This document shows, piece after piece, positions 774 through 9,392 of a DNA stretch of 11,591 nt; the first letter of the stretch is position 1, and each line of letters opens with the position of its first letter. The notes under the pieces are model-generated. The model saw only the letters and a list, made by a program, of their open reading frames with translations, was not told the origin of the DNA and searched no databases. The stretch is from Actinomycetota bacterium (lineage in GTDB: Bacteria; Actinomycetota; Actinomycetes; Nanopelagicales; Nanopelagicaceae), in assembly GCA_009700155.1 (NCBI GenBank), contig WLMP01000022.1, forward strand, positions 1 through 11,591, written 5' to 3'. Position numbers and translations under genes: made by a program.

Positions 774-3700
774 ATGTATTTAAAGAGCATGAATCTGAAA
801 GGGTTCAAGTCCTTTGCCTCCTCGACAACTCTTAATTTTGAGCAGGGCATCACCTGCGTAGTAGGTCCTAATGGTTCCGGTAAATCAAATGTGGTCGATG
901 CACTCTCATGGGTAATGGGAGAGCAAGGTGCTAAATCTTTACGTGGTGGAAAAATGGAAGATGTTATCTTCGCTGGAACATCTGGCCGTGCCCCTCTTGG
1001 TCGAGCAGAAGTCTCCGTCACAATTGATAATGCTGACGGTGTACTACCGATTGATTTTTCAGAAGTAACAATTACCCGCGTTTTGTTTAGAAATGGTTCA
1101 TCAGAGTATTTGCTCAACGGTGAAACAACTCGACTTTTAGATATTCAAGAACTGTTAAGCGATAGCGGAATTGGTCGAGAAATGCATGTGATTGTTGGCC
1201 AAGGCCAGCTTGATGCAATTTTGTTAGCAAACCCAGAGGAAAGAAGAGCATTTATTGAAGAGGCTGCTGGAGTTCTAAAGCACCGTAAGCGTAAAGAAAA
1301 AGCAATTCGAAAACTTGATTCCATGCAAACAAACCTTGCGCGAATTCAAGATTTAACTGTTGAGTTACGTAGACAGTTGCGTCCATTAGGTAAGCAAGCT
1401 GAAGTCGCCAGGAAAGCCTCTGTAATTCAATCTGATGTTAGAGATGCAAAATTGCGATTAATGGCAGATGACATGCTCCGAATGCGAAATGAAATGGAGT
1501 TAGAAGTCGCTGATGAAAATGTACTTAGGCAACGAAAAGAGCAAGTTGAGGCCGAACTAAATAAAGCACGCAATCGAGAAATTGAATTAGATGCAATTGC
1601 GGCGAGTGAAAATCCACAGCTAATTGCGGCTCAAGAAAATTTCTATCGCCTAACTGCTCAGCGAGAACAAATTCGTGGTGTGCAGAATTTATCTTCAGAA
1701 CGTGCAAGATTTTTAGCAGAAGAGGCAGAAGAGGCAAAAGCTACCGGTAGAGATCCAGATGCATTAGATCAAGAAGCACGAATTTTAAGAAGTGAAGAAT
1801 CTACTCTTGCTAACCAAGTCAGAAGTTCACAGGAGCAACTAAATACAGATTCAAGTTCATTGAAAGCTATTGAAGAAAAATTAGCATTAGAAGAGAACCG
1901 TGTCTCAGCAGCTTTAAGGGCGATTGCAGATCAACGTGAAGGCACTGCTAGGCAAGAAGGCCATATAAATGGTCTACGTTCTAGAATCGATGCAACTACT
2001 GGAGAAGTAAGCCGTTTAACTTCTGCTAAAGATCTAGTTGAAATTAGATTAAAAAATTACCGTGAAAATTTCGCTCAAATTGAGACACAAATATCTGCAC
2101 TATCTTCATCAGAACCTGGTCTAGATAGTTTATTTGATAAGTTAAAGGCTGAGTTAAAAAACTCAGAAAATAATCTTAAGCTGCTGTCAGATAAGTTACA
2201 GTCCACAGAAAAACTTCGAGCTGGATCCTTAGGTCGACTTACTGCATTTAAGGAAATATCTGAATTAGTTCAATCAGTTTCTAATTCAGAGTTGATATCA
2301 AAGATTAGTGCTCTAACAACTGAATGTGAACAAGAAGTTAATAAGGTAAATGCCGATTGTGATCGAATTAAGTTTGAGCTAAGTGGACTAAATGAAGAAT
2401 TAAATAAGGTAAATAAAGAGTATGAATTAGTACTTTCTAAGTTGAATGATTCTGATGCGGCAATGACTGGACTAGCAGAACAGCTAGCAATATCTGGTCA
2501 AAATGTGAAAAACACAGTTGAGGAATTAGATCGACTTGGTTCGGCACTAGGTGCTGCTAATGATCAGAAAAATTCAGATGAACGAGATCTAGCTGCAGCC
2601 ATTGCACAGTTTGAATCCCATCAAACACCCGTAGAGCCAGATTTAACTAACCTTGAAGATTTAAGGTCACAGGTTTCAGCAGCTAGATCTAAGGAAGTCG
2701 AAGCCCGCTTAAGTCTTAGAACAATTGAAGAACGTAAAGATGCTATTGCCCAACGAGCAATAGCACTTGAGAATCAAGCTGCTGCTGAACGTGAATCAGA
2801 ATCTAGATCTATTTCGCGAAGAGAAAACCGAGCACAAGCTGCAATAACAGCTCAGGAGATTGCAGATACTGCCTATGAGGCATTGATTCAGATTGAATCT
2901 TCAATTTCGCGCTCTGGAATTGAAAGAGAGAGACTGGAAGCTTCAAGATCTTCTCGCGAGGGAGAGATATTAAATCTACGCACAATCAGCAGAGAATTAG
3001 CAGTAGAGCTAGAAAAACTAACCTCTAGTGTGCATAGAGATGAAATTGCACGGGCTGAGCAGAGGTTGAGAATTGAACAATTAGAAACTAAAGCAGTTGA
3101 AGAACTTGGAATTGATGTTCAAACCTTAATCAGTGAGTATGGACCTAATAATGACGTACCTACGTTCTATGAAAATGAGCAGGGAGAGTTTGTCCCTGGA
3201 GATTTAATCCCATATCGTAGAGATCAACAAGAAAAGCGACTGGCGCAAGCTGAGCGTTCTCTGACTCTACTCGGAAAGATTAACCCACTAGCACTTGAAG
3301 AGTACTCATCATTAGAAGAGCGACTGCGCTACCTTGCAGAACAGTTAGAAGATTTAAAAAAGACAAAGAAAGATTTACTCGACATTATCAAAGAGGTAGA
3401 TGATCGAGTACAACAGATTTTCACTGAAGCTTATGAAGACACAGCAAGAGAGTTTGAAATTGTGTTTTCAAGATTATTTCCTGGAGGAGATGGAAAACTT
3501 ATTTTAACTAATCCATCTGATATGTTGACTTCAGGTGTGGATGTTGAAGCTAGGCCGCCAGGCAAGCGAGTAAAACGACTATCCCTTTTATCCGGTGGTG
3601 AGAGATCTTTAGTTGCCGTAGCGCTTTTAATTGCAATATTTAAAGCAAGGCCTTCGCCGTTTTATGTTATGGATGAAGTTGAGGCAGCACTCGATGATAC

Positions 3701-3881
3701 AAACCTAGGTAGGTTGCTTGGTGTATTTGAAGAGTTACGTGAAAAATCACAGTTGATCATAATCACTCACCAGAAGCGAACTATGGAAATTGCTGATGCA
3801 CTTTATGGAGTCACGATGCGAGGAGATGGTGTTAGTGAAGTTATATCGCAACGAATTCGCGAAGTTGACGCTGTTTCTTAA
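774..3881 (+). CDS. smc: Chromosome segregation ATPase Smc, apparently lacking the hinge domain
   Basis: Smc is the ATPase subunit of the bacterial condensin Smc-ScpAB, which organises and segregates the chromosome. The protein has 1035 residues; actinobacterial Smc usually has about 1150-1210. The N-terminal head carries Walker A GPNGSGKS at 31-38 and the Q-loop region VGQGQLDAIL at 141-150. A coiled-coil arm follows from about 165 to 497. A second arm runs from about 507 to 870, interrupted near 779-815 by the segment GIDVQTLISEYGP. The C-terminal head has signature LSLLSGGE (936-943), Walker B with D967-E968, the D-loop ALDDTN and switch His at about 999. Between the arms, where a globular hinge of roughly 150 residues belongs, I see only a short link around residues 490-515 and no Gly-rich hinge consensus. 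The start MYLKSMNLKGFKSF matches the family exactly. ftsY follows after 8 bases, so the two are probably co-transcribed. Identity is certain; the hinge loss is inferred by eye. Confidence 0.96.
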   Translation: MYLKSMNLKGFKSFASSTTLNFEQGITCVVGPNGSGKSNVVDALSWVMGEQGAKSLRGGKMEDVIFAGTSGRAPLGRAEVSVTIDNADGVLPIDFSEVTITRVLFRNGSSEYLLNGETTRLLDIQELLSDSGIGREMHVIVGQGQLDAILLANPEERRAFIEEAAGVLKHRKRKEKAIRKLDSMQTNLARIQDLTVELRRQLRPLGKQAEVARKASVIQSDVRDAKLRLMADDMLRMRNEMELEVADENVLRQRKEQVEAELNKARNREIELDAIAASENPQLIAAQENFYRLTAQREQIRGVQNLSSERARFLAEEAEEAKATGRDPDALDQEARILRSEESTLANQVRSSQEQLNTDSSSLKAIEEKLALEENRVSAALRAIADQREGTARQEGHINGLRSRIDATTGEVSRLTSAKDLVEIRLKNYRENFAQIETQISALSSSEPGLDSLFDKLKAELKNSENNLKLLSDKLQSTEKLRAGSLGRLTAFKEISELVQSVSNSELISKISALTTECEQEVNKVNADCDRIKFELSGLNEELNKVNKEYELVLSKLNDSDAAMTGLAEQLAISGQNVKNTVEELDRLGSALGAANDQKNSDERDLAAAIAQFESHQTPVEPDLTNLEDLRSQVSAARSKEVEARLSLRTIEERKDAIAQRAIALENQAAAERESESRSISRRENRAQAAITAQEIADTAYEALIQIESSISRSGIERERLEASRSSREGEILNLRTISRELAVELEKLTSSVHRDEIARAEQRLRIEQLETKAVEELGIDVQTLISEYGPNNDVPTFYENEQGEFVPGDLIPYRRDQQEKRLAQAERSLTLLGKINPLALEEYSSLEERLRYLAEQLEDLKKTKKDLLDIIKEVDDRVQQIFTEAYEDTAREFEIVFSRLFPGGDGKLILTNPSDMLTSGVDVEARPPGKRVKRLSLLSGGERSLVAVALLIAIFKARPSPFYVMDEVEAALDDTNLGRLLGVFEELREKSQLIIITHQKRTMEIADALYGVTMRGDGVSEVISQRIREVDAVS

Positions 3882-3889
3882 AGATTGAA

Positions 3890-4726
3890 ATGAGTTTATT
3901 TCGAAAGCTAGTTTCTGCACTCAAAACTGGATCAGTTTCGCCCGAAGATTGGACACAATTACGTCAGCAACTAATCGCATCTGATTTAGGGGTCAATCTT
4001 GTTGATCAGGTAATTGAAAAAGCAAAATCTACAAAATCAGAGGATGCTGTAAGTTCAATTTCAAGTGAGGTATCTTCTTGGTTAAGCAATAAGAGCCGTA
4101 TTCTTACGGGTGATAAAGGAATAACTAAAACTATTTTAGTAGTCGGTGTTAATGGAACCGGTAAAACAACCTCAACTGCAAAGCTTGCAAATTATCTAGT
4201 AAAAAATGGCAATTCGGTTTTACTTGCAGCCGCAGATACCTTTAGAGCAGCAGCAACTGAACAGCTTCAAACTTGGGCCAAAAGAATTGATGTTGAAGTA
4301 GTTTCAGGATCTGAAAATAGTGACCCAGCAGCAGTTGCCTTTACTGCAGTAAGCAGAGCAAAGGAATTGAAAGTAGATTACCTAATAGTTGATACTGCTG
4401 GCAGACTTCATACCAAGCAGAATCTGATGGATGAGCTTGGTAAAATTGTTAGAGTTATCCAGAAGCAATCAACAGTTGATGAAATATTGCTTGTTATTGA
4501 CGCAACCACAGGTCAAAATGGATTAAATCAGGCAAATGTATTTATTGAAGCAGTTGGGGTTACCGGCTTTATAGTGACAAAAATAGATGGCTCAGCTAAA
4601 GGTGGAGTCGCAATTGCAATTGAGAAATCAAGTGGCCTACCAATTAAATTCATTGGCACAGGGGAGCAGATTGAGGATTTCGGACCATTTGCTCAAGAAG
4701 TGTATATAGCCGGATTATTCGATTAA
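3890..4726 (+). CDS. ftsY: Signal recognition particle receptor FtsY, NG core only
   Basis: FtsY is the membrane-associated GTPase that docks Ffh-bound ribosome-nascent chain complexes at the SecYEG translocon. The 278 residues make up just the N and G domains. The N domain begins with a short amphipathic helix (SLFRKLVSALK) that may serve as the lipid contact. G-domain motifs are GVNGTGKTT (86-94), DTFRAAATEQL (116-126), G3 DTAGRLH (168-174), G4 TKID (230-233) and closing GTGEQIEDFGPF (256-267). The acidic or membrane-spanning A domain found in many actinobacterial FtsY proteins is absent. This is not a start-site error: an in-frame TGA lies at 3866-3868 and no ATG, GTG or TTG occurs between it and 3890. 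Smc ends 8 bases upstream and no clear Shine-Dalgarno site is visible, so translation may be coupled to smc. Confidence 0.95.
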   Translation: MSLFRKLVSALKTGSVSPEDWTQLRQQLIASDLGVNLVDQVIEKAKSTKSEDAVSSISSEVSSWLSNKSRILTGDKGITKTILVVGVNGTGKTTSTAKLANYLVKNGNSVLLAAADTFRAAATEQLQTWAKRIDVEVVSGSENSDPAAVAFTAVSRAKELKVDYLIVDTAGRLHTKQNLMDELGKIVRVIQKQSTVDEILLVIDATTGQNGLNQANVFIEAVGVTGFIVTKIDGSAKGGVAIAIEKSSGLPIKFIGTGEQIEDFGPFAQEVYIAGLFD

Positions 4727-8125: not shown

Positions 8126-8707
8126 GTGTCAGTAAAGATTAAGTTAATGAGACTTGGAAAGATCCGTACACCACATTTTAGAATTGTAATTGCAGATTCA
8201 CGTTCTGCTAGAAATTCAAAAGCAATTGAAGAGATTGGTCGTTACTCACCAGCATCTGAACCTTCATTAATTGAGGTTAATTCAGAGCGTGTTCAATACT
8301 GGCTTGGAGTTGGGGCACAACCAACAGAGGCAGTAACTGCACTTCTTAAAATTACTGGTGACTATCAAAAAGCAAATGGCCTTCCTGGAAGCGAAGGAAC
8401 TTTAAAGCCACAACCAGTAAGAGTTGATAAGAGAGTTGCCTATGAGGCAGCAGTTAAAGAAGCAATGAATGAACCAGCAGATGGTGCTACAACATTAAAG
8501 AAGAAAGCCGCTGAGAAGTTAGCTGCGAAGGCAGCACCAGTTGTGCAAGAGGCTCCAGTAGCTGAATCTGCACCAGTAGCTGAATCTGCACCAGAAGAGG
8601 CAGCACCAGTTGTGCAAGAGGCTCCAGTAGCTCAAGCAGAATCAGTAGAGGCTGCACCTGCAGAGGTTGTTGCTGAGGCTGCAACTGAAGAAACCCCTCA
8701 AGCTTAA
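8126..8707 (+). CDS. rpsP: 30S ribosomal protein S16 with long Ala/Pro/Glu-rich tail
   Basis: S16 binds 16S rRNA early in assembly of the small subunit. The first roughly 95 residues are a normal S16 domain ([51 protein letters not shown]). From about residue 115 to 193 the protein continues as a low-complexity acidic, Ala- and Pro-rich tail. Actinobacterial S16 proteins often carry such tails, but this one is long and is built from DNA repeats. The GTG start is supported by AGGGAG and by the family N-terminus. Downstream, KH-protein, rimM, trmD and rplS usually follow; here lepB starts after 13 bases. Confidence 0.96.
8529..8632 (+). repeat. Direct repeats in the rpsP tail
   Basis: A 35-base unit at 8529-8563 recurs identically at 8598-8632, 69 bases later. 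Between and overlapping them, an 18-base unit, CCAGTAGCTGAATCTGCA, is present twice in tandem (8555-8572 and 8573-8590). All units are multiples of three in phase, so they repeat peptide motifs ([16 protein letters not shown]) without breaking the frame. Confidence 0.9.
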
Positions 8708-8708
8708 G

Positions 8709-8721
8709 TAAAATAAACTTA
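8709..8721 (+). promoter_or_regulatory. Candidate leaderless promoter of lepB
   Basis: TAAAAT (8709-8714), six bases, then ATG at 8721. No ribosome site is present, and an in-frame TAA at 8709-8711 fixes the start. The geometry is the same as upstream of ffh and dprA. A -35 was not recognised. Confidence 0.4.
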
Positions 8722-9392
8722 TGCTGAAGAAGGGTTCATTCCTTCGGGAACTACCCATAATTGTTGTATCTGCACTTATTGTTTCTATTGTTATAAAGAC
8801 ATTTCTACTTCACTTTTTTTATATTCCATCTGGTTCGATGGAGAATACACTTCAAGTTGGTGACCGAATAGCAGTTAATAAGTTTGGTGCCCTTTTTAGT
8901 GAGATCAAACGCGGTGAAGTTGCAGTCTTTAATGACCCGGATAAGTGGCTAGGGGATGCACCAATAGATGAGAGTTCAAGTATCTCTAGCAAATTAAAAA
9001 ATGGGCTAATTACTGTCGGGGTACTGCCTGATCCTGCTAAACAATTTTTAATAAAAAGAGTTGTGGGCGTTGGAGGAGATAACGTAATTTGCTGTGATGC
9101 CTCTGGAAAAATTCAAGTTAATGGAGTCTCAATTAACGAGCCATATATTTACCCAGGCGATAAGCCAAGTGAAATGAAATTCAATGTTGATGTTCCTAAG
9201 GGGTTTGTCTATGTTTTGGGCGACCACCGCGCAGCTAGTTCTGATTCAAGATTTCATTCAGACCGTGCAAACAATGGCATGGTCCCCCTGAGCAAAGTCG
9301 TGGGTCGAGCAACATTTATAGTTTGGCCACTATCTAATATTGCATTTATATCAAAAGGTGATGACTTAGAGAAGGTTAAGCTAAAAGATTAG
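8721..9392 (+). CDS. lepB: Signal peptidase I
   Basis: LepB is the membrane-bound serine protease that cleaves signal peptides from exported proteins on the outer face of the cytoplasmic membrane. The 223 residues have one N-terminal membrane segment (about 11-34) preceded by basic residues. The box with the nucleophile is IPSGSM (35-40, Ser39), the general-base lysine is Lys112 in IKRVVGVGGD (111-120), and the last box reads GDHRAASSDSR, the form seen in actinobacterial enzymes. The start is fixed by an upstream stop. rnhB starts 9 bases downstream, so these two are probably in one operon. The gene's place next to the SRP genes fits a shared role in protein export. Confidence 0.96.
   Translation: MLKKGSFLRELPIIVVSALIVSIVIKTFLLHFFYIPSGSMENTLQVGDRIAVNKFGALFSEIKRGEVAVFNDPDKWLGDAPIDESSSISSKLKNGLITVGVLPDPAKQFLIKRVVGVGGDNVICCDASGKIQVNGVSINEPYIYPGDKPSEMKFNVDVPKGFVYVLGDHRAASSDSRFHSDRANNGMVPLSKVVGRATFIVWPLSNIAFISKGDDLEKVKLKD

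Follow-up and report, generated by a model that had tools for sequence, protein, structure and literature searches.

Can a bacterial Smc dispense with its hinge, and what would then become of the contact at the tip of its arms? The question is raised by the window, i.e., the whole stretch of 11,591 nucleotides analyzed here, one gene of which encodes an Smc of 1035 aa with two ATPase heads and two arms, in which no hinge was recognized. The hinge is regarded as a defining part of the SMC motor; in the available text of PMC12647877 it is proposed as a gate for the bypass of single-strand-tethered obstacles, its channel being absent from other SMCs. A first-pass annotation of the window had read the protein as an Smc with intact heads and arms, from which the hinge was removed by one clean in-frame excision.

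The smc gene and its missing segment

The window protein was recognized by TIGR02168 (SMC_prok_B) with 779 bits, the cut-off being 567; in Pfam (E<=10) SMC_N was found with 236 bits and SMC_hinge (PF06470) gave no match. By phmmer, residues 1-213 align with the solved Smc heads 3zgx_A and 5xg3_A, and residues 832-1031 with 3zgx_A. The ABC ATPase head is split between the two ends and carries all three motifs (Walker A, signature and Walker B), where we take GPNGSGKS to be the Walker A motif, LSGGER the signature and residues 961-975 the Walker B region (Table 1). A mutM-like gene upstream and an ftsY-like gene downstream presumably reflect the usual order of an smc locus, and by descent and locus the protein is an Smc orthologue without a defining domain, the hinge. 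Further along the window (8126-9392) an rpsP-like gene, whose long tail is rich in Ala, Glu and Pro, stands immediately before a lepB-like gene. The genes rimM, trmD and rplS, which usually lie between rpsP and lepB, are not found there among the window ORFs of >=80 aa.

Table 1. Position of smc, its parts and its downstream neighbour in the window.
Feature	Position	Strand	Basis
smc, hinge-less, 1035 aa	774..3881	+	ORF, TIGR02168 score, no PF06470, own hinge profile
ATPase head, N-terminal half, residues 1 to ~170	774..1283	+	phmmer to solved heads 3zgx_A, 5xg3_A
Walker A (presumed) GPNGSGKS, residues 31-38	864..887	+	invariant, 30-sequence alignment
Upper left arm, predicted single helix, residues 328-499	1755..2270	+	AlphaFold2/DSSP
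Apex helix EKLRAGSLGRLTAFKEI, conserved, residues 479-495	2208..2258	+	entropy 0.16, mean pN/pS 0.07
Predicted apical turn QSVSN, five residues, 500-504, site of lost hinge	2271..2285	+	AlphaFold2/DSSP, MAFFT hinge gap
Upper right arm, predicted single helix, residues 505-615	2286..2618	+	AlphaFold2/DSSP
ATPase head, C-terminal half, residues 831-1035	3264..3878	+	phmmer to 3zgx_A, invariant columns
Signature (presumed) LSGGER 939-944; Walker B region (presumed) 961-975	within 3264..3878	+	invariant columns
ftsY-like signal recognition GTPase, downstream neighbour	3890..4726	+	ORF list, identity by reading

A hinge profile of our own, built from 62 actinobacterial hinges and run with filters off, assigned -1.9 bits to the window Smc and 38.5-51.8 bits to four held-out hinge-bearing Smc. 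All hinge-bearing Smc tested reached >=38.5 bits, and all hinge-less ones <=0.5 bits or no hit at all.

The extent of the missing piece was taken from a MAFFT alignment in which 25 hinge-less Smc stand beside 28 others (27 hinge-bearing ones and that of Candidatus Ancillula). The hinge-less rows comprise the window, 22 copies from its genus, one from a sister genus (G123) and L063, perhaps of the same species as L017; L070 (cut at its 5' end) and the duplicate L001 were left out. All 25 hinge-less Smc are exactly 1035 aa long and share one common junction, whereas the 27 hinge-bearing proteins measure 1178-1189 aa, the aligned Nanopelagicales among them 1178-1185 aa. The gap, which covers the hinge and some flanking residues, lies between EKLRAGSLGRLtAFkE and LIsKIsaLT and amounts to 143-154 aa, so that the earlier estimate of about one missing hinge held, its figure of 150-170 residues being slightly high. 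The junction itself is where the annotation had placed it, with LRAGSLGRLTAFKEISEL at residues 481-498 and SELISKISALTTE beginning at residue 505, and the claim of intact heads and arms agrees with the domain matches above. The Smc of the endosymbiont Candidatus Ancillula (L077:1803-5156, ~1115-1118 aa), in which the hinge profile found no hit, lacks the first half of the hinge while a C-terminal remnant aligns, and is possibly a hinge caught in decay.

An AlphaFold2 model (30 sequences, single chains) places two long helices on either side of a short turn (Table 1), with ten-residue pLDDT means of 80-90 across residues 471-550. It contains no globular domain within residues 480-620, the region in which, according to the annotation, such a domain would have spoken against its reading. 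As the heads were modelled poorly (pTM 0.28), the model was used at the local apex only, where each Smc chain is predicted to turn back on itself through a helical hairpin of five residues.

Distribution and phylogeny of the hinge-less state

The genus of the window is here called Ca. Nanopelagicus after the label of protein P0138, whose 87% identity to the window Smc falls into the range seen within the genus (78-95%). PF06470 had no match in the window's own genome (E<=10), for which search 12 of 14 control genomes gave a match, ten of them above the cut-off. In none of the 25 genus genomes, the own genome included, was it found at E<=1, and it was present in all 16 genomes from other families of the class at the same threshold. 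A match to Smc residues 1-1035 in one collinear piece was obtained in 23 of the 25 genus genomes, again including the own one, with identities to the window Smc of 78-95% in the 22 others, and no Smc match was found at the threshold used in G015 and G019. Length was likewise constant, at 1030 or 1035 aa, in all of the best 120 of 7997 scored proteins. The hinge-less state of the Nanopelagicus Smc is thereby established, and the one clean in-frame loss that the first-pass annotation had proposed is borne out genus-wide.

Two further readings were rejected. In the three single-contig genus genomes (G001, G005 and G013; completeness 99-100%) the next matches to P0001 after Smc were frames of 582-583 aa (E 2e-5 to 2e-4), so that no second Smc was seen and the protein cannot be taken for a paralogue. 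A hinge encoded elsewhere in the genome is not indicated either, as PF06470 was not found in the genus and our own profile obtained weak hits only among G013 ORFs of >=60 aa (best whole-protein E 0.0016, domain 10.6 bits).

Across the order, a hinge match was found in 176 of 201 genomes (E<=1), 175 of them above the cut-off; the one below it, G214, had no Smc match either. Sixteen of the 25 genomes without a hinge match belong to Ca. Nanopelagicus. The remaining nine (five handles were deduced from the numbers missing in the series, the totals agreeing) comprised one collinear Smc of 1035 aa, two in pieces, one frame of 875 aa and five without a match of Smc scale. G123, the single genome searched of a different (sister) genus, carries a collinear Smc of 1035 aa with 73% identity, and the hinge-bearing relatives include Candidatus Planktophila and Candidatus Nanopelagicaceae. 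The 875-aa frame (L150 in G162, genus g20) lacks the hinge and ~160 more arm residues, by deletion or assembly fault, the Smc of g20 being mostly ~1181-1191 aa long among the members listed.

A survey of 178 genomes of the phylum yielded a hinge match in 148 (E<=0.1), 142 above the cut-off, and three of the six below it (G241, G337 and G358; E 0.03-0.06) belong to one family, f21. P0001 was used to search the 29 genomes that, apart from the window's own, gave no match (ten handles inferred from numbering gaps, totals agreeing), and 25 of them fall into five families, f21, f24, f42, f46 and f49; excluded from the calls were G369 (middle like a divergent hinge), G303 and G366 (split) and G248 (near contig start). 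Among the seven f21 genomes Smc is collinear in one piece in six, one of these six being cut at query residue 978; the five whole proteins read have ~1020-1045 aa, PF06470 is absent from the precomputed domains of the best 120 of 7963 proteins, and AlphaFold2 predicts a four-residue turn at 499-502, near the 500-504 turn of the Nanopelagicus Smc. Shorter frames were found in f24 (13 genomes; 741-798 aa in 12 and 448 aa in one), f42 (two genomes; 893 and 900 aa), f46 (two genomes; 792 and 909 aa) and f49 (one genome; 921 aa). In Pfam, one representative of each of the five families displayed neither a hinge nor a known apex domain, the frames of f24 and f49 starting late, and by profiles alone f24, f42, f46 and f49 appear hinge-less. 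Within f24, the Smc of L196, L197, L198, L201 and L206 (~740-800 aa) combine short arms with a middle that varies and is rich in Gly in one of them; they may carry an unrelated apex domain. By eye, the Smc middle of L189 (G369, f57) and L210 (G303, f50) resembles a divergent hinge missed by Pfam.

A tree of the heads was calculated from 71 sequences and 419 columns, including five of the 25 hinge-less and 15 of the 27 hinge-bearing rows of the first alignment. The tree omits the cut or doubtful frames L188, L189, L191, L195, L210 and L211, the pieces L190 and L212, L247 (no Smc frame found) and seven more f24 loci, and L219-L221 were removed by hand (doubtful frames and a family-mate). Five changes of hinge state resulted, each forced by well-supported branches (bootstrap range 5-6); the counts themselves cannot distinguish loss from gain, and loss is inferred from the hinge-bearing relatives that lie around every group. 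The clade formed by Nanopelagicus (97/95) nests inside the hinge-bearing Nanopelagicales (fork 100/97). A single origin of Nanopelagicus and f21 was rejected (p-AU 0.0005), as was one clade of all hinge-less rows (p-AU 1e-43), both for groups picked after the tree had been seen. The families f24 and f42 have long branches and a composition flagged as unusual by the tree program, and may represent one or two losses.

Partners, selection and the apex

The own genome encodes ScpA (G000:C1:24113-24784) and ScpB (23542-24012), and both were found in 19 of the 25 genus genomes, missing from the same six, which are 62-76% complete; the survey of relatives that the annotation had called for thus returned the same deletion together with retained partners. 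Among 29 genomes of hinge-less lineages scored for ScpA, including three f21 genomes whose Smc sequence was not read, 28 possess it, the exception being G282. In the closed genome G013 a ParB-like ORF (1233183-1234064, by motif and reading) lies beside two parS cores of 14 bases (1234956 and 1235584, 628 bases apart) that match exactly. The whole genome contains no further parS at <=1 mismatch and three at two mismatches, and its GC-skew minimum is near position 3113, the parS pair lying close to the origin. In the hinge-bearing G049, of whose 1,331,009 bases 780,000 were examined, a ParB-like ORF occupies the same place, together with two one-mismatch parS sites separated by 640 bases. For both genomes the parS consensus was the one we assume to be general.

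The hinge is thought to help resolve collisions between SMC motors. With the loading sites gathered in one cluster, few motor collisions would occur, which may have made the loss of the hinge tolerable. As the same arrangement exists in G049, it is no mark of hinge-less genomes in particular, and one loading cluster is probably older than hinge loss; a low number of parS as a result of that loss is therefore unsupported. In Bacillus subtilis whose Smc carries a substituted hinge, leaving a single parS site suppresses the folding defects, according to the accessible part of PMC12647877.

Selection was measured as mean pN/pS over pairs from 14 of the 25 coding sequences, ratios that are rough because pS is near saturation (~0.7). 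The heads averaged 0.03, the two arms 0.18 and 0.15, the apex helix (residues 479-495) 0.07 and the turn 0.55. Such values point to strong purifying selection on the heads. In the closest pair (WIN/L002) pN was 0.105 in the apex helix versus 0.061 and 0.032 in the arms. Taken together, the kept ScpA and ScpB, the ParB-like protein with parS and the selected heads argue for an Smc-ScpAB that works, and against a relic or an assembly error, and as far as sequences can tell, a functional hinge-less motor in Nanopelagicus is strongly supported.

Mean entropy of the apex helix is 0.16 in the 25 hinge-less Smc versus 1.36 in 19 hinge-bearing Nanopelagicales. Since the two sets differ in divergence, ranks within each are the fair comparison: 0.16 is reached by 7% of arm windows in the hinge-less set, so that the conservation of the apex helix is not unique, and 1.36 is matched or beaten by 73% of arm windows in the hinge-bearing set. 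Identical in all 25 are E479, L481, A483, G484, L486, G487, R488, L489, A491, E494 and I495, and the consensus EKLRAGSLGRLtAFkEI is nearly invariant in the hinge-less set only, while positions 500-506 vary and are often S, N, G, A or D. An arm block at residues 381-400, LRAiADQREGTARQEGHING (window 1914-1973), is with an entropy of 0.02 in the genus more conserved than the apex. The near-invariant helix suggests a new surface for helix packing and a new apical contact. Self-pairing would be its simplest use, but its conservation could also serve another partner or the hairpin as such.

By alignment and tree, the chromosomal smc lost the entire hinge in frame in the lineage leading to Ca. Nanopelagicus and a single sister genus, and strong purifying selection has maintained the hinge-less Smc ever since, alongside ScpA and ScpB. 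The complex would remain an Smc-ScpAB motor, with heads that dimerise on ATP and ScpA as the bridge between them. The apex, if pairing, would pair via the conserved helix, the small-residue face of which is fit for close packing, and this tip contact would take over ring closure from the hinge. For the reading as a whole, i.e., a hinge lost in frame, a complex still working and an apex helix contact, if any, in place of the hinge, we see the scales about level.

A tentative alternative, which deserves attention, is that two hairpin-tipped Smc are held solely by ATP-dependent head engagement and ScpAB, with no apical pairing at all, which would make the complex an open clamp and not a closed ring. 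The hinge is gone and the tip reduced to a fast-evolving turn of five residues (mean pN/pS 0.55), ScpA and ScpB are retained, and apex sequences differ in the other hinge-less families; however, the left apex helix is near-invariant in the hinge-less set alone, which a free tip would not need. That another protein binds the apex, bridging two Smc tips or anchoring them elsewhere, seems unlikely, since no candidate is known, although the confinement of the constraint to one helix would suit it. Still harder to maintain is a continuous rod, in which two antiparallel chains complete each other's heads: the arms are joined with almost no linker, but with fair confidence the AlphaFold2 model has a break in the helix at 500-504, and the variable residues at 500-506 are those of loops. 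A non-functional remnant of genome reduction, as the small genomes (~1.2 Mb) might suggest, is highly improbable and contradicted by nearly invariant heads (pN/pS 0.03) and a length unchanged in 25 of 25 aligned sequences. An assembly artefact, conceivable for a window from a genome of 102 contigs and 75% completeness, has next to no likelihood, as the collinear frame recurs in 23 of 25 genus genomes, three of them single-contig, and the best 120 of 7997 proteins all have 1030 or 1035 aa.

Known systems and the role of the hinge

With the canonical bacterial Smc (TIGR02168; Planktophila-type and other actinobacterial proteins) the Nanopelagicus Smc shares heads, signature motifs, arm layout, ScpA and ScpB, the ParB-like protein with parS and the smc-ftsY locus; unlike it, it has no hinge, a five-residue turn joining the arm helices and a near-invariant tip helix. 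MukB and JetC belong to other subfamilies with other kleisins and retain a reduced dimerising hinge. Like the Nanopelagicus Smc, MukB and the JetC of Wadjet II/III have no donut-shaped hinge channel (PMC12647877, available text). Rad50/SbcC and archaeal ClsN/ASRP are likewise built head-coil-head without an SMC hinge and dimerise by a CXXC zinc hook, which for ClsN/ASRP is described in the accessible part of PMC9389158 (see also PMC12153180, in part), whereas the Nanopelagicus apex has none: CXXC is absent from residues 479-530 of the window Smc, the cysteines there being 518 and 529.

A close counterpart is one 'hinge-less' ocean SMC cluster of the class Actinomycetes, with heads and coil, no hinge and no CXXC hook, described in the available text of PMC12153180 (Environ Microbiome 2025;20:65). 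The Nanopelagicus Smc, an actinobacterial SMC with neither hinge nor CXXC, fits this description, which concerns ocean gene-catalogue sequences of unassigned lineage. The statement of the first-pass annotation that every known bacterial Smc has a hinge was consequently too strong, the more so as five further actinobacterial families appear hinge-less. In the literature, preprints being outside the scope, no report of a hinge-less SMC in the Nanopelagicus lineage was found, nor, beside the cluster as far as that source describes it, of any other natural hinge-less Smc. With the cluster published in 2025 the hinge-less kind was already known; new here are the lineage, the closed genomes, the retained partners, the recurrence and the apex motif.

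Engineering had swapped the hinge for a Rad50 zinc hook, with which B. subtilis grows normally (PMC5344682, accessible part), while evolution here used no known dimerisation domain. We consider it rather probable that Smc-ScpAB needs no hinge: with at least five actinobacterial losses, two lineages turning at 499-504 and a tip remade as a minimal contact or left open, loop extrusion and chromosome segregation would proceed without a hinge gate in free-living cells. Hinge-less Smc forms an unexpectedly recurrent evolutionary pattern, and repeated loss argues that the essential motor consists of heads, arms and kleisin. A natural hinge-less Smc-ScpAB beside hinge-bearing sister genera offers a test bed for the roles of the hinge in ring closure, DNA entry, the bypass of single-strand-tethered obstacles and collisions between motors.
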